Shown here piece by piece: positions 1,264-12,404 of a stretch of 44,796 nucleotides of DNA. Under the pieces are notes generated by a model that was not told where the DNA came from, did not search any database, and worked only from the letters and a program-made list of their open reading frames with translations. The position numbers and the translations under genes were made by a program. This DNA comes from Thermoplasmata archaeon. GTDB lineage: Archaea; Thermoplasmatota; Thermoplasmata; Lutacidiplasmatales; UBA184. The first letter of the stretch is position 1; each line of letters begins with the position of its first letter. The DNA lies in assembly GCA_030041075.1 (NCBI GenBank), contig JASHOP010000022.1, positions 1-44,796 on the forward strand, written 5' to 3'.

Positions 1264-2655
1264 CTAGTGTGCGGCGGCCATTCTCGCGACTTCTGCTTTG
1301 TCGCCGACAGCCCTGAGTGAACAGGTGAAGCAGTCGGCGTCAGCGGAGACGGTCCGTTTCGTAGCGCTCTGGAATGGGGACGCGAGCGAACTGAGGTAGT
1401 AGACGCAGAGGCCCTCGCAAGGACGCAACCCTGTCACGCCGAGCATGAACTCACTCACAGCCATGGAAGAGATGGTACCATTGAGTGAGACGACGGATGG
1501 CTTGGGTAAGTCCCAGCCAGATGCATACCCACGCTTTCTGGCCTCTTGCTGGGCCGTTGGCGAGCTCAGGAAGTACTCGGCCTCTTTCCGGTCGATCTCC
1601 CCCATGCAGTTCAGACATGGTCCGTCAGGCGTTACGAGCGCGACTCTTCCTCCGGCGGAATCGAACCTGCCCCCGGGCGCATCGATACCAGAGGCTAGGT
1701 CGAAGTACGTTAGGTTGTAGGCTTTAGCCACTCGGTTGAGGACTAGGCGAGCTCCATCGTTGTCAAGGCACCCGAAGACGACATCCGCGTCGTTGAGGGC
1801 GTCTACCGCTGCCGATCCAGGAAGCTTCTGGGGCACCGAATGAACCTCGGCGGCTTGTCGGCGCCTGATAGTCTTCACGAGTCGCGCCGCCACCGCCACC
1901 TTCGGCTTTCCTAGGTCGGAGTGGCTAGCGCCGACACATCGGTTCAGATTCGTTCGGACGATCTTGTCGTTGTCTACAAGGATGAACTTCTTTACGCCCA
2001 GGTGCGCCAACTGTTGGGCTACGTGGAGACCGAGGCCTCCTAATCCGACGATGGCAACGGTGACCTGGCCAATCCGCCTCTGACCCTCCACGCCGAAAAG
2101 AAGGATCTGTCGTTGGGCTACCTCCTTCTCAGTGGTACTCACTGGTTCCTGCAATCGGGAAGACGTGGGAAAGATGATTCGGGGGGAAACATCGGAGATG
2201 ACCATTCGATCAACGCGCTCGCTGCGGGCGGGAGCTCTCCACCACCACGCATCGATACTGTCTTCTCCCCAGACAAGGGCGGCGTAAGGACGACCGCCCA
2301 TGGCATCGAGCATGTATGTCGAGAATTCCTTCAACCCCTCCCGGTCGATCGAGGAGAAGGATGTGCCGCTCCCTCTCCCTCTGTGATTGTGATTCTCCAC
2401 AACCGCCCAGCCGCCCCTTTTGGCGCGGTTAATCACGGCCAGAAGGGCTTCCAGCTTGATGTCACGCGGGCTATCCCAGTCGGATTCGAGGTCGTCCTTG
2501 GAAATCGGGATGAACTCCCTCAGGGCAAACCTTGTGACGCCTCTAGTGCGGATAAGTCCGGCCAGGAAGAAACCAAAGTTCTCACCGACTCCACCCAGAA
2601 GGTGCGCTCTCGCATCTCGCCAGATAGATCCGGGGGCCGAGATAATCGCCCTCAA
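1264..2655 (-). CDS. JAB/JAMM peptidase-E1 (ThiF) fusion of a ubiquitin-like conjugation system
   Basis: 463 residues, two enzymes in one chain. The N-terminal JAB-like isopeptidase (about 1-150) carries a JAMM signature: E25 in GVGENFGFF, H89 and H91 in ENHNH, and S101/D104 in FSSID. Such domains trim or remove ubiquitin-like modifiers. The C-terminal E1/ThiF domain (about 175-450) has the nucleotide loop GLGGLG at 204-209, D228/D230, N238-R239, K250-K252 and D298, the full adenylation set. A zinc ribbon is formed by C347/C350 and C442/C445. No cysteine stands at the obvious thioester position, although C413 and C417 are near the end. It starts at TTG 2655, overlapping the E2 stop by 4 nt, so it is the last gene of the Ubl-E2-E1 operon. 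Substrate and biological role are unknown; related bacterial cassettes are linked to antiviral defence. Confidence 0.9.
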   Translation of the reverse strand: MRAIISAPGSIWRDARAHLLGGVGENFGFFLAGLIRTRGVTRFALREFIPISKDDLESDWDSPRDIKLEALLAVINRAKRGGWAVVENHNHRGRGSGTSFSSIDREGLKEFSTYMLDAMGGRPYAALVWGEDSIDAWWWRAPARSERVDRMVISDVSPRIIFPTSSRLQEPVSTTEKEVAQRQILLFGVEGQRRIGQVTVAIVGLGGLGLHVAQQLAHLGVKKFILVDNDKIVRTNLNRCVGASHSDLGKPKVAVAARLVKTIRRRQAAEVHSVPQKLPGSAAVDALNDADVVFGCLDNDGARLVLNRVAKAYNLTYFDLASGIDAPGGRFDSAGGRVALVTPDGPCLNCMGEIDRKEAEYFLSSPTAQQEARKRGYASGWDLPKPSVVSLNGTISSMAVSEFMLGVTGLRPCEGLCVYYLSSLASPFQSATKRTVSADADCFTCSLRAVGDKAEVARMAAAH

Positions 2656-3041
2656 TTCGCCTCGGATAGCCGCCGCTCGACCTCTCGCATGACCGCCAGG
2701 AGGTTGGACCCCTCCTTCGCGTCACTCTTGGGGGCCCAACCATTGTCGATATGCCAGGAGAACGTATCCCAGCTCTGACCCTGGTAGGAGAACGACCCCG
2801 GAGTCATGCTCCCCGGGAGGCCACCACCCTGGAGACGCAGTCCCGCGGGCACGTAGAAGTTGTCGGGCGCGGTCTCTGGATACGCTCCTGGAAGGACGAG
2901 CAGCACGTCGGTCTCGGTTCGAGTCCACCCCCCGGCCAGAGGAACGGAGTGGATGATCACCCATTCGTACTGAGTACCGCAGTCCACTCGAGGGTACTTC
3001 TTCCTCAGTAGCTCCACCTCTGCAAGACGTCGGTCGAGCAC
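2652..3041 (-). CDS. E2/UBC-fold protein, prokaryotic E2 family E type
   Basis: 129 residues. The pattern of a central PGAYPETAPDNFYVP strand-loop, then a GxSWDTFSWH motif around 88-97, a conserved W at 102 and a final helix resembles the Prok-E2_E family that accompanies multi-ubiquitin genes. That assignment is from recalled family features. The only cysteine is C21, near the N-terminus, so the usual central catalytic cysteine of E2 enzymes is absent. The protein is either a non-catalytic E2 fold or uses another nucleophile; several Ser/Thr lie at 78-97. It starts at GTG 3041, 3 nt after the Ubl stop, and overlaps the E1 start, indicating translation as a unit with both. Confidence 0.8.
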   Translation of the reverse strand: MLDRRLAEVELLRKKYPRVDCGTQYEWVIIHSVPLAGGWTRTETDVLLVLPGAYPETAPDNFYVPAGLRLQGGGLPGSMTPGSFSYQGQSWDTFSWHIDNGWAPKSDAKEGSNLLAVMREVERRLSEAN

Positions 3042-3044
3042 ACG

Positions 3045-3299
3045 TCAACCTCGCTTGAACCGAGGCGGCTTCTTGAACCGCTTTCCTCCTTCGACGTTGC
3101 AGTCGTCGTCCGGCTTCAGACTCTTTTCCGTCCCGTCTTCCTCTACCTCGACCAGGCCCTGAGAGCGGTCGATTCCGGCGACGGACATTATCTCCGAAGC
3201 CTTGAGAACCGGTTTCTCGCTCGGGTAGGTCTTCCCGTCCACGATGTACTCGTAGACCTGTCTTTCGCTTGGCACGATCTGCGGCGCTCCTGTCGCCAT
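3045..3299 (-). CDS. Ubiquitin-like modifier (single multi-ubiquitin-type domain)
   Basis: 84 residues. Residues 13-80 show the layout of the multi-ubiquitin domain: an initial YEYIVDGKTYP strand pair, a helix SEIMSVAGI, then EVEEDG and a late strand ending RFKKPPRFKRG. The protein stops directly on Gly84, so a conjugation-ready C-terminal glycine exists without processing, unlike many multi-ubiquitin proteins that carry several domains or a tail. It is predicted to be adenylated at this glycine by the E1 encoded two genes downstream and cleaved by its JAB domain. First gene of the operon, with a TATA-like box about 25 nt upstream of ATG 3299. There are no lysine-rich tags or signal peptide; cytoplasmic. 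Confidence 0.82.
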   Translation of the reverse strand: MATGAPQIVPSERQVYEYIVDGKTYPSEKPVLKASEIMSVAGIDRSQGLVEVEEDGTEKSLKPDDDCNVEGGKRFKKPPRFKRG

Positions 3300-3429: not shown

Positions 3430-4251
3430 GTGGCCTCGACCTCCCCTTCCGGCGTGGGAGGAGACGTCGAACAGAACGAATTCTCTCAGTTGAAGACACT
3501 GCTAGAGAAGATTGGCCTCCTGCCCTCAGATGAGGCTGCCGTCTATGCTGAGGCCGTCCGCAAAGGGTCGGTAACTACAAGCGACGCGGGTCGTGTCGCC
3601 CACCAAGACCGGAGTAAGGCTGGCACGACGCTTCGACACTTGGCCGAGAAAGGGTTCCTGCGCGAACGCGTCCGGGAGTCGACCACCAGAGGAGGTCGAG
3701 GGCACGGTGATGTTTACTCCGTTCTTCCCCCTAAGGAAGCTCTAAAGGACAAACTCGAGGCTACCGAGGACCTTCGTGCGCTCGCAGACAGACTCGACCA
3801 GCACCTCGAGCTGCTCGCGGCCGAGGGTGAGCAAGACGAAGACGTCTGGAGGTTACACCCCTCGGCCCTCGCGCCAACTATCATCGCCGCAATCGGGGCG
3901 GCTGCGGCAGGGATCGAGGTGGTGTCTAACGACTGCAGCTGGATCGATCGCCCCGATGTCCTCTCAGCACTGGGGAATGCCAGGAGGCGTGGGCTCCGTG
4001 TCACAGTGTACGCGTCCGCGCTACGCGCCACCGACAAAGGTCGGCTTCGCTCGCATGGGCTCACAGTGAAGTCGATCGAGGGAAGAACCCAACCATTTCT
4101 ACTAGTCGACCGGAGGGTCCTGTTTATTCCGATACGAATGGGTTCAATAACGACGGATTACGGTGCGTTGCAGACTGCGAACAGGTACATGGTCGACAAT
4201 CAGTCCGCGTTTGTCGACAGGGTGAGCGATGGGAGGCGAGTAGGAAAGTGA
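3430..4251 (+). CDS. TrmB-like transcriptional regulator
   Basis: 273 residues starting at GTG 3430. Residues about 18-75 form a winged helix-turn-helix (LGLLPSDEAAVYAEAVR followed by a recognition helix and GFLRERV wing), then a helix around 95-120 that would form a dimer coiled coil. Residues 135-270 look like the PLD-like sensor domain of archaeal TrmB proteins (strand-helix repeats such as IEVVSNDCSW and GLRVTVYASAL). TrmB proteins control genes in response to small ligands. It is transcribed divergently from the Ubl operon, 130 nt apart, so it is well placed to control that operon and itself. The stop overlaps the next gene by one nucleotide. No ligand can be named. Confidence 0.75.
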   Translation: MASTSPSGVGGDVEQNEFSQLKTLLEKIGLLPSDEAAVYAEAVRKGSVTTSDAGRVAHQDRSKAGTTLRHLAEKGFLRERVRESTTRGGRGHGDVYSVLPPKEALKDKLEATEDLRALADRLDQHLELLAAEGEQDEDVWRLHPSALAPTIIAAIGAAAAGIEVVSNDCSWIDRPDVLSALGNARRRGLRVTVYASALRATDKGRLRSHGLTVKSIEGRTQPFLLVDRRVLFIPIRMGSITTDYGALQTANRYMVDNQSAFVDRVSDGRRVGK

Positions 4252-4706
4252 TGGAAAAATATGTGGTGCCACTGATGATTGTCGAGGAGATGGGGACCGT
4301 CGTTGGAAAGACTCGACTCCAAAAGATCGCCTGTATCGTCGAGGCGAGGGCGCAGGAGACCCATGCGTTTTCTTCTGGCCTTCAGTTTACTCTCCACCTT
4401 CACGGTCCATTCAGTCGGGAGCTTGCCTCGCTGGTGGACGGGTGGGTCCGGGACGGCGTTCTAGAGGAGAAGCTGAACTACACGCCGATGGGTCATCCAC
4501 AATACTCGTACTACCTCAGCGACGAGGGAAGCGAAACGCTCCGGCGGATGCTCGCCGAGGTCCGCGATCCAGAGAGGCTAAGATCAGTCATTCACGATGT
4601 ACTCGAGGGATCCGGATGGCTCCCGCTTCCGGACCTGGTAAAGCAGGCGTATGCGGCACACGCCACCTTGTCGGAAGTGGGGAAGCATTCGAGTCAGACG
4701 CCCTGA
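4251..4706 (+). CDS. YwgA-like protein of unknown function
   Basis: 151 residues from ATG 4251; a GTG at 4248 is equally possible. The segments KTRLQKIACIVEA, LHGPFSRELASLVDGWVRDG and SYYLSDEGSETLRRML match the layout of YwgA-type and related SocA/Panacea-like winged-helix proteins, which are often paired with regulators or toxin-antitoxin-like loci. The match is by eye and at the level of fold rather than function. It is translationally coupled to the TrmB-like gene (TGATG overlap), so the two probably act together. No catalytic motif or membrane segment is visible. Confidence 0.6.
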   Translation: MEKYVVPLMIVEEMGTVVGKTRLQKIACIVEARAQETHAFSSGLQFTLHLHGPFSRELASLVDGWVRDGVLEEKLNYTPMGHPQYSYYLSDEGSETLRRMLAEVRDPERLRSVIHDVLEGSGWLPLPDLVKQAYAAHATLSEVGKHSSQTP

Positions 4707-5018: not shown

Positions 5019-5372
5019 CTAGTGAACGAGAATCTCGTAGAGGAGTCCAATGGCCCCGTTCGACTTCAAGCGCTCTGTGAGGACAACTTTGCTGATGTAA
5101 ATGTGCTTGTCAAGTTCATTCCTAAGGTAGAGCGCGACCGCGAACATCGCCCCGAGTACAGCTGTGATCGATAGGAACCCGTACAAGGCTCCGACCCCCT
5201 GTCCCACCGTCTTGGAATTCTCTAGGTACGTGACGACCGTGCCCACTAGTGCCACAACGGGTCCAATCGAAGTTACTATCAGTTGAAGCCAAGTCCTCAA
5301 GCTATCTGCGCGGTCGGCGAAGAACTTCAGCCAGTCCTGTGGTTGAATTCCCGTCAAATTTCCCCTACGCAC
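5019..5372 (-). CDS. Small membrane protein, unknown
   Basis: 117 residues with two predicted membrane spans (about 28-48, LIVTSIGPVVALVGTVV, and 60-82, ALYGFLSITAVLGAMFAVALY), a charged N-terminal helix and a basic C-terminal tail. No family recognised. Its start overlaps the upstream membrane-protein gene by 8 nt, so both are translated together. It sits at the end of a three-gene minus-strand cassette in the island, between the regulator pair and the restriction-modification genes. Small two-span proteins in such places are sometimes membrane-disrupting effectors, but this is only a contextual guess. Confidence 0.6.
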   Translation of the reverse strand: MRRGNLTGIQPQDWLKFFADRADSLRTWLQLIVTSIGPVVALVGTVVTYLENSKTVGQGVGALYGFLSITAVLGAMFAVALYLRNELDKHIYISKVVLTERLKSNGAIGLLYEILVH

Positions 5373-5916
5373 GAGATTGGCTATTGGCCTTCGACGCCGG
5401 GGTGGGGGCTACTTGGCTGTCCACCGAAACTGATGGACTTACCTCGACCCTGTCTGGTTGCTGCTTGAGTAGTGTGAGAAGGTTTGTGGTCAGTCGCGTC
5501 CTGGAACGGGTGACTGCCTGCCAGAAGTAGGTTGCCGAAATCGAGACAGCTATGACTCCGACGATTCCACCCAGGATGACCATCCCCGGCCAGCCCTGCA
5601 GAGTTTGGGATAGGCTACGCCCCACAACGAGGAAACCTACGACGACCGAGATCGCGACTACGGCCACAAGCGCGACGATCCGATACACCCACGCGCGGCG
5701 GTCGAGCCTTGGAGAGAACTCCGTGAGCAGTCCGATGAGAGCAGCCTCCTCCGGATTGGGAAGTTTGCTCTGGTCAATGAAGTGCAGGTCGCCGCCGGGG
5801 TCAACGAAGTAGTAGAGGTCGCTACCGTCGACTTTCACGCTACCTATGGTCCCCGGTTTAGCCGCAGGGATGGAAGTAGACCTTTCGTTCACCTGCCCGG
5901 GTCCAGATACTGGCAA
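5365..5916 (-). CDS. Two-span membrane protein, unknown
   Basis: 183 residues. The first 75 are soluble and contain a small beta-type module (VKVDGSDLYYFVDPGGDLHFIDQ). Two membrane spans follow, at about 78-104 (WVYRIVALVAVVAISVVVGF) and 110-135 (GMVILGGIVGVIAVSIS), and then a Ser/Pro-rich cytoplasmic tail. No known family is recognised. It begins 12 nt after the 74-residue gene and overlaps the next membrane gene by 8 nt. The soluble N-terminal module could be a sensor for the membrane part; that is inference. Confidence 0.6.
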   Translation of the reverse strand: MPVSGPGQVNERSTSIPAAKPGTIGSVKVDGSDLYYFVDPGGDLHFIDQSKLPNPEEAALIGLLTEFSPRLDRRAWVYRIVALVAVVAISVVVGFLVVGRSLSQTLQGWPGMVILGGIVGVIAVSISATYFWQAVTRSRTRLTTNLLTLLKQQPDRVEVSPSVSVDSQVAPTPASKANSQSRA

Positions 5917-6186: not shown

Positions 6187-6960
6187 TCGCCTCCCTTCAG
6201 CCGTCCCTCTCTGAAGTCCCAGTCCGAACCGGAGTCTGTATGACTTCGACAGGCAACTCGGGGGGGACACCGAAGTTTGCAGTCAAACACTCGAAATCCA
6301 CAGGCAAAGGTCCAAGACGTTGCTGGGAATCAGGGTTAGTCAGTCCGGTTCGAGCCGCAACTCTGCGAAGGGGGACCACGTGGTCACCCCAACCGAATCC
6401 CACTCAGGCAGGACGCGGGATCGGATCGATGTCAAACATGCCACAGGTATATCGAGCGCGTTGACCCCTGGACTGTGGAACTGACACTTACCTCCGCCAT
6501 TCTCCACGAGAGGGGTCTCTCACGCTCGAGGGAACGGTCCGCCTAAGCTAATCAGGCCCCGAGTGGGTGCGCATGGGATCGCACCCGCGGTTTGTTGGTT
6601 GCGCGGTCGCGCGTGCGGAGCTCGTGCAGCGGTGGCAGAGTTACAGTCAATTGTGGAGGCTTCGAGGCAGCTCGGGCCCACGAGCGGCTACCTCGCCGGA
6701 GTCGGCAAAGGAGGCCCTGCGGCCCGAGCTGAGGAAGCTAAGGGACTAGCCTCACCGACAGCGGATCGGACGGCGATGAGCCCGCATGAACCTCCGGCGC
6801 CTTCTCGCGCCTCGAGTGGGGTGACTCGAGGTGCGTGGAAATCCTCTTCGTCATCGACCATGGGCTTGATGCCGTCATAGGTCACCCTCCTTCCGGACGC
6901 TCAAGCTTATTCACAGGGAGTTGGTCAGTCGCGGCGCGAGGAACCAGAGTGAACCCGGCT
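6187..6960. other. Long intergenic stretch upstream of the methyltransferase
   Basis: About 770 nt without a convincing gene. It holds a perfect 12-bp palindrome GACCACGTGGTC at 6374-6385, a 7-bp stem-loop at 6565-6586 (GGGTGCG, 8-nt loop, CGCACCC), and a 12-bp stem-loop at 6806-6835. A 68-codon minus-strand frame (6403-6197, GTG start) has unclear coding character. Confidence 0.5.
6806..6835. promoter_or_regulatory. Stem-loop upstream of the methyltransferase
   Basis: CGCGCCTCGAGT, six-nucleotide loop, ACTCGAGGTGCG: a 12-bp inverted repeat with one imperfect pair, about 125 nt before the methyltransferase start. Candidate operator or transcript end; function not shown. Confidence 0.35.
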
Positions 6961-7929
6961 ATGGACGCGCACCAGGCTCAGCTCGAGCCGGAAGAGGGTA
7001 AGGGTCGTCTCAGGGCTCAGAGGAGGAATCGACAACTTACGCTGAGCGGAGAGGTCGCGAAGAAGGCTCGCCCAGATCCACGTAACCGGCTAAACGAGCT
7101 CTCGAACACTGAATGGATGTACTTTACCCGCAGCGTGTGGTTCACCTCCTTCCCCAGAGAGTACGGCTTCGAGATTCGGGGGAAGCACGGGGGGAACAAG
7201 CCACCATCGCTGCTCAAGCAAATCATCGAGTTCTTCACCAAACCCGGGGAGACGGTCCTCGACCCAATGTCTGGAGTCGGCGGGACCTTGATCGGGGCAG
7301 CTCTTTGTGACCGCAGGGCAGTTGGAATCGAAATCAACGACGCCTGGACTGATGGCTACAGACAGGTTTGCAGGAAGGAGCACATCCAGGCTCAGGAAGT
7401 AATCACGGGAGACTGCTTAGAGACACTGGCCAAGATGAGGTCGCACTTCGACCTTGTAGTCATTGACCCACCATACCGCGAGTCAACCTTCAACCCGAAT
7501 GTCTCTGGAGTTCGTAAGCAAGCCATCGCGAACGGCGAGCGGATGACTAGCCTCACGGAGAGCTTCTCCCGAGACAAGCGCGACTTCGGCAACAGCCCAT
7601 CCTACGAGGTGTACCAACTCAGGCTCAAGCAGTTGTTTGCTGAGTGTTATCGAGTGCTAAAGGAGGGGCGTTACCTTCTCGTCTTCTCCAAGGATGAGTT
7701 CAGGGAAGGGGCTTTCTTTGAACTGTCGTCAGAGATCGCGAGCCTTGCGGTCCAGGCTGGATTCAGGTGGGTGGGAAAGATAACCTGGTATCAGGCGGGG
7801 GCCCCGCTGAGACCCTACGGCCTGCCGTTCACCTACGTTCCGAATTTCATCGACCAGAAGATTCTCGTCCTGAAGAAAGGAAACGGCGATGGGGCGTCGA
7901 GTAATGGATCTCAACGGTCTCACCGTTAA
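6961..7929 (+). CDS. DNA methyltransferase (N4/N6 type), probable modification enzyme
   Basis: 322 residues from ATG 6961. Motif I (AdoMet binding) is DPMSGVGGT at 101-109, followed by an acidic strand end VGIEIN; the catalytic motif IV is IDPPY at 168-172, typical of exocyclic-amino adenine N6 or cytosine N4 methylation. Motif I precedes motif IV closely, with target-recognition sequence likely in the C-terminal half. A frame extension upstream to 6835 adds residues unlike the family. The 3' end overlaps the oppositely transcribed HNH nuclease gene by 83 nt, so the two probably form a type II restriction-modification pair, the methylase protecting host DNA. The recognition sequence cannot be inferred. 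It could alternatively be a stand-alone methylase. Confidence 0.85.
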   Translation: MDAHQAQLEPEEGKGRLRAQRRNRQLTLSGEVAKKARPDPRNRLNELSNTEWMYFTRSVWFTSFPREYGFEIRGKHGGNKPPSLLKQIIEFFTKPGETVLDPMSGVGGTLIGAALCDRRAVGIEINDAWTDGYRQVCRKEHIQAQEVITGDCLETLAKMRSHFDLVVIDPPYRESTFNPNVSGVRKQAIANGERMTSLTESFSRDKRDFGNSPSYEVYQLRLKQLFAECYRVLKEGRYLLVFSKDEFREGAFFELSSEIASLAVQAGFRWVGKITWYQAGAPLRPYGLPFTYVPNFIDQKILVLKKGNGDGASSNGSQRSHR

Positions 7930-8947
7930 TCATCACGTACTGACGATAGCCTGCAGGGGGTAGATGCCGCACTTCCGCGTAGTGCATCTTCCGGTGGCAG
8001 TTCGCGCAGAGGATTACGATGTTGGAAAGACGGTCTGCTCCACGCTTTCCAAGCGGCACGACATGGTGGCTCTCCGAGTAGTTTTCCCCATCCCGCTTCT
8101 TAAAGGTTGAACGGCAGATTTGGCATCTCCCTCCATAGAGTCTTTTGAGACGGTCTGATAGTAGGACATTGCGCTTGACCAAAGTCACAACGGCATGTGC
8201 GTGTACGGGCACACCTGAACCGAGATCGTCGGCGAGGTCATCTATGGCGCGGTCTTGATCCTCCGAACGGCTCCGTATCTCATGCCGAACCCGCGCTTTG
8301 AGGGTCCGGCTTCCAGTCCCCCGAGAGCCGGAGTAGCGAACCACCACCTCCGACGGGGTGTCGGCCCCAGATAGTGGAACCACGCCGCACAACTGGGCCA
8401 TCTGCAGAACGCTGGGCACCCGGTTGAACGCGGCTTCGTCAATCCCGAACTCTCCACCGTACTCGCGGTAGAAGGTATCGTCATGTCGTACTTCTGGGTT
8501 CGGCCGGCTCGCGAGGAATATTCGGAAATTGACCAACGAAGGCGAGTCGAGGAGAATCCGGCTAACCTCTTCGTAAACCTGGGGACGACTCTCTAGGGTC
8601 CTCCGAATTGACCGTATTGCAGCTGGACCGCTTCCCTCAGGGAAGCTGACCCTGAATCTGCGGAGCAACTGAAAGAGGCGTTCGCCAGGCCCGGTGAGGT
8701 TCAGCTTCTCCGACGCGGTGACCGGACCGTACGGAAACGGTAACCTGGACTCTACGAGCCCCAAGCCGACCATGAAACAGACTGTCCAATGATCGAGATT
8801 CCGAGGATCATTCGGACCTCTTACAAGTGTGTCATAGTCGCCGGCCTTCAATCGGCGCACATAGTTCAACACCCTTCCGGGCGGGGCCGGGCCAGATACC
8901 AAGAACTTGGGTGGAAAGGGCCGAACGTAGCTCAAGCGCCTTGGCAT
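7847..8947 (-). CDS. HNH endonuclease, probable restriction enzyme
   Basis: 366 residues. The C-terminal HNH domain has C285/C288 (CQIC), the catalytic SHHVVPL histidine pair near 304-305, N319 and CANCHRKMH at 324-332, forming the beta-beta-alpha-metal site with a zinc knuckle. The first 270 residues are helical and unrecognised and may carry DNA recognition. The gene runs against the methyltransferase with an 83-nt tail-to-tail overlap, which argues for a restriction-modification pair in which this is the DNA-cutting partner. Specificity unknown. HNH proteins may also be homing or general defence nucleases, so the restriction role is inference from context. Confidence 0.8.
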   Translation of the reverse strand: MPRRLSYVRPFPPKFLVSGPAPPGRVLNYVRRLKAGDYDTLVRGPNDPRNLDHWTVCFMVGLGLVESRLPFPYGPVTASEKLNLTGPGERLFQLLRRFRVSFPEGSGPAAIRSIRRTLESRPQVYEEVSRILLDSPSLVNFRIFLASRPNPEVRHDDTFYREYGGEFGIDEAAFNRVPSVLQMAQLCGVVPLSGADTPSEVVVRYSGSRGTGSRTLKARVRHEIRSRSEDQDRAIDDLADDLGSGVPVHAHAVVTLVKRNVLLSDRLKRLYGGRCQICRSTFKKRDGENYSESHHVVPLGKRGADRLSNIVILCANCHRKMHYAEVRHLPPAGYRQYVMINGETVEIHYSTPHRRFLSSGRESSGR

Positions 8948-9448: not shown

Positions 9449-10432
9449 ATGATGGCTGAGGAGCCTCCGAGGGAGGAACCTACCTTGCCCACCGTGGCAA
9501 GGAGGTGGGGAGAGCTCGTAGAGCGATATGTGGAGAAGAGGAGCCAAGAGAGCCTGTCGGCCCATCACGTCCTGGAGCTGCGCAGGGTCCTCAGGAAGAC
9601 CGGCCGCGAGCTTGAGGGGGCCGGCCTTGCGTGCCTGCCGGCGAACTTCGGAGACGCTCAGCTGGACTTTCTGCTGAACGGGCCATGGCGACCTGCTACC
9701 GAGAGTCAGACCGGTTTGGCACCGATCAGCCGTCGATACGTCGTCTGCATCCTGAACGGCTTCCTGAAGGATGCGGGCAACCTAATCGTCGAGCGGCGCC
9801 GCCTTCGGTTCCCGCGGTCAGGCGTTCGCCCCTTGCTCGCCTTGACGCCGGACGAAGCCTCGCGACTGCTCGACGTGGCCGCCACCCGGGGGATCGTCAC
9901 CCACTCCGTGGTCGCGTTCGAGCTGCTGATGGGTCTCCGTCGGAGCGAGGTGCGCCGCATCACCGTCGCCGACCTTGGCGAGCGGTTCCTGAGGGTGCAT
10001 GGCAAGGGACGGGCGGGCGGCAAGGTCCGTATGGTCCCCTACCACCCCGAGATCCTTCGGCTGCTGCCGTCCCTTCTGGGGCACCGAAGGCAGGTCATGC
10101 AGGGCTACCTGGGCCCCGACCCGGGGTATCTGTTCGCCCGGCGGACCTCGAGCGGCCTAGCGGTGTGGTCCCGGAGCTGGCTGGACGAGCGGATCATGGG
10201 GCCGGCCTTCGAGGCCGCGTCCGTCCGTCGGGCCTGGAACCTGCACCACGCGCTCCGCCGGACCTGTGGCCGGACGATGTGGAAGAACGGGGTGCCGATC
10301 GAAACGGTCAGCAAGATCCACGGCCACGCCGACGTGAGGATGACGATGCGCTACCTCGCCATCGACCAGGACGACATGGCTCAGGCGATGGAGGTCCTCG
10401 GGCGGGTGCTCCCGGGGGCCCGGGTCGCCTAG
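9449..10432 (+). CDS. Tyrosine recombinase (integrase)
   Basis: 327 residues. An N-terminal SAM-like DNA-binding domain (about 15-125) is followed by the catalytic domain with the family's residues visible: R in MGLRRSEV, the K/beta-hairpin stretch VHGKGRAGGKVRMVPY, H-x-x-R in HHALRRTCGR, H in IHGHADVRMT and the nucleophile Y in MRYLAI. It cuts and rejoins DNA at specific sites, usually integrating a mobile island or resolving dimers. It sits at the right edge of the lower-GC island, divergent from a ribbon-helix-helix gene and followed after 12 nt by a long inverted repeat, so it is the likely integrase of the island. Full length; ATG 9449 or 9452. Confidence 0.9.
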   Translation: MMAEEPPREEPTLPTVARRWGELVERYVEKRSQESLSAHHVLELRRVLRKTGRELEGAGLACLPANFGDAQLDFLLNGPWRPATESQTGLAPISRRYVVCILNGFLKDAGNLIVERRRLRFPRSGVRPLLALTPDEASRLLDVAATRGIVTHSVVAFELLMGLRRSEVRRITVADLGERFLRVHGKGRAGGKVRMVPYHPEILRLLPSLLGHRRQVMQGYLGPDPGYLFARRTSSGLAVWSRSWLDERIMGPAFEAASVRRAWNLHHALRRTCGRTMWKNGVPIETVSKIHGHADVRMTMRYLAIDQDDMAQAMEVLGRVLPGARVA

Positions 10433-11180: not shown

Positions 11181-11375
11181 GCCCACTCTTCCAAGAGTGG
11201 GCAGTCTGCGGCCGGCACTATGAGGCGGAGTCTTTGGCTTCGGTTGGATCCCTCTGCCCCGCGATGCTACTACCCGCCTTCCTAGCGCTTGAGCTGATGA
11301 GATGTGTCCTTCCGCCTGATGTCGGGTCGGAAGGACGATAGGTCGCGCCTCCGTTCGTCCCTTCGGAGGCGCTCC
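11181..11375 (+). ncRNA. Candidate bridge RNA of the IS110 element
   Basis: The left non-coding end is strongly structured. It holds a perfect 10-bp stem GCCCACTCTT/AAGAGTGGGC at 11181-11202, a 9-bp stem with 13-nt loop at 11306-11336, and a 9-bp stem with 10-nt loop at 11345-11372 ending 3 nt before the transposase ATG. The last stem contains GCGCCTC and GAGGCGC, matching 7 nt of the flanking direct repeat, as a guide might. Exact ends and loop assignments are not determined. Confidence 0.5.
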
Positions 11376-12404
11376 ATGGAGAGCCAGTTGTTTGTGGGAC
11401 TCGATGCGCACAAGAGCTCGATCGTCGTCACGGTCCTCGACCGCGAGGGGAAGCGGATCGACCAGACCCGTCTCGGATCGAGCGACGCCGAACTGAGGCA
11501 GTACCTTCGCGGGTTCCCCACCGCCGAGGTGGTCCTCGAGGCGTGCAACGTCTGGCAGCACGTCTACGATGCCGCGGTCTCGACCGGCGCCCGGGTGACC
11601 CTCGCCCACCCCTACAGGGTGCGGCTGATCAGCGAGGCGAGCTTGAAATCGGACAAGGTCGATTCCCTCGCCCTGGCGCAGCTGTTGCGCCTGAAGGCGG
11701 TCCCCGTGGCCTTCGCTCCGAACGAAGCGACCCGCGAGCTCCGCCAGATCGTCCGAGACCGGGCCTTCTATCGGGAGGAAGAGCAGTCGGTTCGGAACCA
11801 CATCTACTCGGTCCTGTTGCGGAAGGGAATCCCCTACGAGGAGGGAGTCCTCGGCCAGAAGAGGAAGCGCGAGGAGCTACGGTCGCTCGGACTCCCCGAG
11901 GTCGACCGGGGTCTGGAGATGTTGGCGCACTTCGACGCTACGACCGCCGAGCTGGACCGGAAGATCCACGAGGCGTTCCTCGCCTCGAAGGAGGCTCAGC
12001 TGTTGGAGTCGATCCCAGGCATTGGTGAGTACACCGCTGTCGGGTTGGTCGCCGAGCTCTGCCCCATCGACCGGTTCCCAAACGTCGAGAAGCTGTGCTC
12101 GTACGCGGGCCTAGTGCCGACGAACCACCAGTCCGGGGAGACCTCCTACCAGGGGCATCTGAAGACGGACAGCAACCACCTCGTGAAGTGGCTCCTGATC
12201 GAGGCGTCCTGGTCGCATCGCTACTGGGAGAAGGGGAGCGATGTGGCGAAGATTGCCAAACGGGTGAGCCGACGGCGAGGAAAGCAGAAGGGCAACGTCG
12301 CCGGGGCACACAAGCTCCTGAAGATCGTCTACGCGGTCCTCCGACGGGGGACGCCTTACACTCCGGAACGACCGAGCCCCGGCTTGAGTTCTGCGAAGTC
12401 GTAA
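11376..12404 (+). CDS. IS110-family transposase (DEDD recombinase)
   Basis: 342 residues. The N-terminal RuvC-like domain shows the DEDD set D10 (GLDAHKSS), E55 (VLEACN), D93 and D96 (KSDKVDSLALAQLL); a coiled-coil linker follows (about 125-205). The C-terminal Tnp IS116/IS110/IS902 domain has IPGIGEYTA (213-221) and the catalytic serine candidate S253 in HQSGETSYQG. IS110 recombinases move DNA under guidance of a bridge RNA encoded in their non-coding end. The frame continues upstream to 11304, but that part is the structured left end, so ATG 11376 is chosen. The gene appears intact. Confidence 0.93.
   Translation: MESQLFVGLDAHKSSIVVTVLDREGKRIDQTRLGSSDAELRQYLRGFPTAEVVLEACNVWQHVYDAAVSTGARVTLAHPYRVRLISEASLKSDKVDSLALAQLLRLKAVPVAFAPNEATRELRQIVRDRAFYREEEQSVRNHIYSVLLRKGIPYEEGVLGQKRKREELRSLGLPEVDRGLEMLAHFDATTAELDRKIHEAFLASKEAQLLESIPGIGEYTAVGLVAELCPIDRFPNVEKLCSYAGLVPTNHQSGETSYQGHLKTDSNHLVKWLLIEASWSHRYWEKGSDVAKIAKRVSRRRGKQKGNVAGAHKLLKIVYAVLRRGTPYTPERPSPGLSSAKS

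Follow-up and report, generated by a model that had tools for sequence, protein, structure and literature searches.

The window analyzed here, a 44,796-nucleotide contig (JASHOP010000022.1) of a Thermoplasmata archaeon, carries a bacterial ubiquitination-like (Bub) operon of the kind that Iyer et al. (2006) listed as "type 6e". An earlier note on this DNA had proposed to compare its three proteins with known families and structures, and this comparison identified BubA, BubB, and BubCD from Citrobacter as their best solved relatives. Because these matches extend over sequence and fold, the operon can be assigned to the Bub family. It is a real and complete archaeal Bub operon that is apparently functional. 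The reading that we favor with good confidence is that of a horizontally acquired system in which an E1 would adenylate the ubiquitin-like protein (Ubl), an E2-fold protein would attach it, and a JAMM protease would remove it. The hand-over is probably cysteine-free, a TrmB-like regulator is probably in control, and the purpose may be a stress or antiviral response. The features of this region are as follows.

3045–3299, minus strand: BubA-like single-domain Ubl, 84 aa, ATG start, C-terminus KKPPRFKRG followed by the stop codon
2652–3041, minus strand: BubB-like E2-fold protein (Prok-E2_E), 129 aa, GTG start
1264–2655, minus strand: BubCD-like JAB-E1 chain, 463 aa, TTG start
3430–4251, plus strand: TrmB-like HTH protein, 273 aa (TrmB PF01978, 21 bits, E 3e-4, below cut-off)
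4248–4706, plus strand: 152-aa protein (weak match to PDC-M19A, 16 bits)
6835–7929: DNA methylase (from Pfam and PADLOC scans of the window genes)
7847–8947: HNH endonuclease
9449–10432: tyrosine recombinase (integrase)
11304–12404: RNA-guided transposase of the IS110 family (203.8 bits, exceeding its cut-off), on the margin of the low-GC island

The first three genes form one operon in the order Ubl, E2, JAB-E1. Rechecking the list of open reading frames reproduced exactly the positions, the strand, the 3-nt gap, and the 4-nt overlap that had been noted earlier. The gap separates Ubl from E2, and the overlap, TTGA, joins E2 to JAB-E1. Inspection by eye finds a Shine-Dalgarno-like GAGG 5′ of all three starts, that of the E2 gene lying inside the KRG codons of the Ubl.

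The earlier note had made its reading depend on a beta-grasp fold for the 84-residue protein, and structure prediction supports this fold. The AlphaFold2 model (pLDDT 80) is a beta-grasp, and its nine best PDB matches in Foldseek are all multi-ubiquitin or BubA proteins from Citrobacter and E. coli (E 3e-4 to 2e-3, probability 1.00). In a search of the PDB, a profile of three relatives matches Citrobacter BubA (9d59) with E 1.3e-7. The Pfam family Multi_ubiq (PF14452) scores the window Ubl at 18.4 bits, under the gathering cut-off of 24.5, and scores the Ubl of a Planctomycetota relative (locus L005) at 29.4 bits, above it. The operon is of the Multi_ubiq/Prok-E2_E type, as first proposed, with a Ubl that by itself stays under the Multi_ubiq cut-off.

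The window gene ends with KRG-stop, so that the Ubl has the free terminal glycine claimed for it and needs no C-terminal trimming. The Planctomycetota Ubl ends in the same way. In Terriglobia (locus L006) and in Ca. Tenderia, KRG continues straight into the E2 domain of a single chain. The Ubl of Mesorhizobium ends FG-stop, those of Bradyrhizobium and Deinococcus read FG-HGNH and FG-GGV, and two archaeal Ubls (genomes G226 and G339) carry a short tail past the glycine (G-PIQPSD and G-PINPS). The PDB chains for the fused Citrobacter product divide into BubA and BubB at residues 229/230, just past a glycine. In such systems, the job of the JAB domain is plausibly a maturing cut after glycine. 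Since the window Ubl is encoded with its mature terminal glycine and the JAMM site is intact all the same, we infer a deconjugating role for this JAB, for which the site is more likely kept than for maturation. The single Ubl does not set the window apart, as the earlier note had supposed. One-Ubl operons with the same three genes in the same order occur in bacteria that are among its closest relatives, including Bradyrhizobium, Deinococcus, and Mesorhizobium; the Planctomycetota locus has one Ubl and the same order, with JAB and E1 as two open reading frames. Two- and three-Ubl forms are found in Paracoccus, Synechocystis, Citrobacter, and others. Given these one-Ubl operons in several bacteria, the single Ubl is ordinary, and one to three Ubl domains had already been described by Iyer et al. 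(PMC1779556).

The third gene encodes a JAB/JAMM domain fused N-terminally to an E1. Its best PDB match is Citrobacter BubCD (9ea5, E 1.9e-21), ahead of ThiF, MoeB, and Uba1. The proposed E1 adenylation domain is confirmed by a Pfam ThiF score of 125 bits and by intact adenylation residues: G204, G209, N236, R239, K252, D298, and R303 are invariant across 19 JAB-E1 proteins. No JAB model of Pfam matches the N-terminal half at E 1, and the JAB assignment rests on an alignment of residues. This alignment recovers E25, H89, H91, and D104, the JAMM site as first described, and adds S101, which completes the signature. H89, S101, and D104 are invariant across the same 19 proteins, E25 is absent only where the annotated start shortens the protein, and H91 is altered only in DL31. 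The only well-conserved cysteines are C296, in a CxD motif, and the CxxC pairs C347/C350 and C442/C445, which Citrobacter and Pla86 lack. The four paired cysteines are likely zinc ligands, and C296 is probably not catalytic. Near residue 322, the Terriglobia JAB-E1 (L006:6001-7368) departs abruptly from its relatives, which would fit a frameshift or a misassembly; the E1 tree discussed below leaves this locus out because its E1 C-terminus looks frameshifted.

The second protein matches Prok-E2_E (PF14462) with 55.8 bits against a Pfam cut-off of 25. Its best PDB relative is Citrobacter BubB, with E 1e-4 from the single sequence and 1e-17 from a 10-row profile. The AlphaFold2 model (pLDDT 83) also finds BubB (9eae) as its best Foldseek match, with a TM score of 0.72. 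An E2-fold protein of the type that accompanies multi-ubiquitin genes, as suggested before, is therefore supported by family, sequence, and fold. However, this E2 has no catalytic cysteine. Its sole cysteine, C21, lies in the N-terminal region and is not conserved, and none of the columns in an alignment of 18 E2s holds a conserved cysteine (at most 3 of 18). Ser95, on the other hand, is found in 17 of these 18 proteins, which share a mean pairwise identity of 22%. The remaining one, from Haloarcula, contains an FS dipeptide nearby, and all haloarchaeal E2s that we read have an (F/Y/W)S dipeptide near the position of Ser95. The conserved motif reads S95-W-H...W102-A-P in the window and S-(W/R)-H...W-x-P across the family. 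The active site of canonical E2s reads C-L-D-I-L...W-S-P. Because the two motifs resemble each other, serine probably replaces cysteine; the comparison is one of motif likeness, as the PDB profile alignments to canonical E2s end before the active site. We therefore predict an E2 chemistry other than a cysteine thioester. Ye et al. 2026 reportedly describe non-thioester chemistry, on which our prediction does not draw. Iyer et al. interpreted the cysteine-less E2 as inactive (PMC1779556). A profile of Bub E2s also gave a weak match to gp128 of phage Phi92 (PDB 21vm chain C, E 0.008), which is either E2-like or a chance hit.

These observations bear on the idea that the operon is a miniature of the canonical pathway, with a cysteine thioester passed from E1 to E2 and on to lysine as in Bil or Caldiarchaeum. 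The functional parts are indeed the same (Ubl, E1, E2 fold, and JAMM protease), and canonical E2s are, after BubB, the nearest solved folds to the E2 model, though weakly so. But neither the unconserved C21 nor any other column of the E2 family offers the necessary cysteine, whereas BilB requires its Cys138 (PMC11354881). Caldiarchaeum also employs a RING E3 (PMC5654768), and no RING occurs in the window genes scanned. We consider a canonical cascade very improbable.

Under the Bub reading, the reaction would begin with the E1 half of BubCD, which would use ATP to adenylate the Ubl at its C-terminal glycine. The activated Ubl would then be handed to the E2-fold BubB, which would attach it to one or several target proteins. 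This hand-over would probably proceed without a cysteine thioester. Considering the Ser95 motif and the lack of well-conserved E1 cysteines beyond C296 and the four putative zinc ligands, we infer either an oxyester between Ubl and S95 or a direct transfer. The JAMM half of BubCD would take the Ubl off its targets again. The divergent TrmB-like regulator probably controls the operon, which may be used in a stress or antiviral response.

A related set of parts could also serve sulfur transfer. In a ThiS/MoaD-like pathway, the Ubl would be thiocarboxylated, and JAB would trim or release it. Combinations of JAB, E1, and Ubl are indeed found in sulfur pathways (PMC1779556), and models of ThiF and MoeB match the E1 domain, but with scores far under their cut-offs. 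Nearly all relatives that we read come with an E2 fold, as a gene or as a domain, and the scanned window genes include no rhodanese or metabolic genes nearby. We know of no sulfur pathway with an E2-fold gene, and ThiS and MoaD typically end in GG instead of the single glycine of the window Ubl; both points count against sulfur transfer, which we regard as highly unlikely.

The operon resides in a mobile, defense-like island. The GC content is about 0.56–0.63 over 1–10 kb compared to about 0.73 past 15 kb, which places the island about 13 points under the core. Together with the methylase, the HNH endonuclease, and the recombinase, this bears out the low-GC island beside restriction-modification genes and an integrase that the note had described. 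On the minus strand, positions 1–140 of the window resemble by eye a helix-turn-helix fragment of a transposase, and the island therefore probably extends past the contig end. No tRNA, a candidate attachment site, was found in the window. The two minus-strand ORFs at 5019–5916 (117 and 183 aa) overlap; they have no significant family match and resemble paired small membrane proteins.

The host is archaeal, as had been claimed. The genome encodes ribosomal protein S8e, which was found only in the archaeal controls. We considered that the contig might be bacterial DNA misbinned into this genome, since its E1 groups with bacteria and the GC of the island is under that of the rest of the contig. 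However, the same 44.8-kb contig contains a formate-THF ligase that shares up to 81% identity with those in sister genomes of the genus, as well as the TrmB-like regulator. The contamination of the bin is 0.36%, and Bub-type loci are present in two further genomes of the genus. Misbinning is therefore extremely unlikely.

A survey of related genomes, which the earlier note had suggested, found the three genes together wherever they occur, but with a sporadic distribution: of 103 genomes of the family, 2 have PF14462, and of 390 genomes of the phylum, 3 do. In one genome of the same genus (G028), the E2 domain is fused behind a probable Ubl; a search of this genome with PF14452 returned nothing, the Ubl being too diverged for the model or of another family. 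Further archaeal Bub-type loci are found in G039, of the same genus, and in G226 and G339, of the same class. JAB-E1 relatives also appear in twelve haloarchaeal plasmid records, and in all five plasmid loci that we read two small genes precede JAB-E1 in the same order. All five (L021, L022, L036, L037, and L038) come from haloarchaea in culture and read as unannotated three-gene Ubl/E2/JAB-E1 operons. Their E2s and Ubls fall below Pfam, and hhalign relates them to the others with 86% and 74% probability, respectively; from these alignments, we regard them as probable members of the Bub family. A plasmid search with the Ubl alone, a short and diverged query, gave no match. No JAB-E1 relative was found in viral contigs, and phage records contained only ThiF/MoeB-like partial matches to this chain.

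In the E1 tree, the window joins the rows from Planctomycetota and Tenderia with support of 100/100. The E1s of G039, G226, and G339 form with those of haloarchaea an all-archaeal clade (99/97). The long branch of G028 has no certain position. Forcing all archaea into one clade is rejected (p-AU 0.0018), suggesting that archaea most likely acquired Bub more than once. The window operon itself was most likely acquired from bacteria, a direction that we read from an unrooted tree. It is thus not "the" archaeal version of the pathway: this copy groups with bacteria, and a separate all-archaeal Bub lineage exists.

One might suspect that such an operon no longer has a function and is merely carried along, decayed or silent, by a mobile island. 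Consistent with this idea would be its sporadic occurrence in the family, its low GC, and its site at the end of the contig, on an island that also holds an integrase and an IS110 transposase. However, the three frames are intact and tightly coupled, each with its GAGG, and all JAMM and adenylation residues are kept at an identity of about 40% to the nearest E1. We therefore judge a silent passenger to be improbable.

The TrmB-like gene and the Bub operon diverge from a shared intergenic region of 130 bp. From this position, the TrmB-like protein is the likely controller of the operon. No close homologue of it was found in 102 genomes of the family. The gene at 4248–4706 overlaps the TrmB-like gene by 4 nt. 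By eye only, its product shares a motif, LQKI...HLHGPFS, with a protein of 177 aa that G028 encodes close to its Bub operon. The latter (L009:10712-11245) is followed by an HD-domain protein (PF01966), the pair spanning L009:10712-12765. In G028 and G039, the gene adjoining the Bub operon encodes a CARF-wHTH regulator (family HFX_2341/DUF6293); these regulators lie at L009:8784-10381 and L035:3875-6967 in the two sister genomes. The Planctomycetota locus contains an HTH gene and an IrrE-like peptidase gene that resemble CapH/CapP. Many bacterial Bub operons adjoin the DNA-damage-responsive regulators CapW, CapH+CapP, or CapK+CapS, and Bub has no demonstrated host protection against phage (PMC13373217). 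A defense or stress role of the window operon is plausible. We also offer, tentatively and as a possibility that we rather doubt, a broader picture: archaea may carry a diversified Bub branch of their own (the haloarchaeal plasmids and three relatives of this genome) next to separate bacterial acquisitions such as that of the window, with archaeal regulators that include the CARF-wHTH proteins. If these proteins sense a nucleotide or an infection signal, archaeal Bub may be a signal-induced and cysteine-free tagging defense.

Bub as such is known already. Its occurrence in several archaeal lineages is new to our knowledge, Gong 2025 and Ye 2026 lying outside the literature that we covered, and shows that this pathway reaches from bacteria into archaea. 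The three-gene, unfused form with a single Ubl would be simple to reconstitute. Since relatives reside on plasmids of haloarchaea that grow in culture, tractable archaeal hosts are at hand for studying its function, be it in stress or against viruses, and archaeal regulators join the list of possible Bub controllers.

Among known systems, the operon of Caldiarchaeum subterraneum is also an archaeal set of E1, E2, Ubl, and JAMM protease. It relies on catalytic cysteines, a RING E3, and an Rpn11-like protease (PMC5654768) and is a separate system; the window has no E2 active-site cysteine and no RING in the genes scanned. The antiphage system Bil (BilABCD) contains the same module of Ubl, E1, E2, and JAB. 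However, BilB depends on Cys138 and has a CEHH motif, BilA has two Ubl domains, and the E1 of Bil is encoded apart from its JAB (PMC11354881), whereas the E2 of the window is cysteine-less and its JAB and E1 are fused. The best PADLOC score for BilD in the window is 21.6 bits, PADLOC having no model for an E2 or Ubl of the window type. Type 6e agrees with the window in having a polyUbl or solo Ubl, a cysteine-less E2/RWD-like domain, and a JAB-E1 fusion; it was listed for bacteria only and includes a treble-clef-like protein Y that is not seen in the window (PMC1779556). In contrast to Citrobacter BubAB-BubCD (PDB 9d59, 9ea4, 9ea5, 9ea8, 9eae, and 9eav), the window operon belongs to an archaeon, encodes a single Ubl domain where Citrobacter has three, keeps Ubl and E2 as separate genes, and has no downstream gene for a DUF6527 protein or a phosphotransferase. 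Its divergent neighbor is TrmB-like instead of CapW, CapH/CapP, or CapK/CapS, controllers that are frequent near Bub operons but do not define them. The two operons share the three proteins and their gene order, the JAMM residues (the D104A mutation in Citrobacter even carries the same number as D104 of the window), the cysteine-less E2 with a conserved serine, and the terminal glycine of the Ubl.
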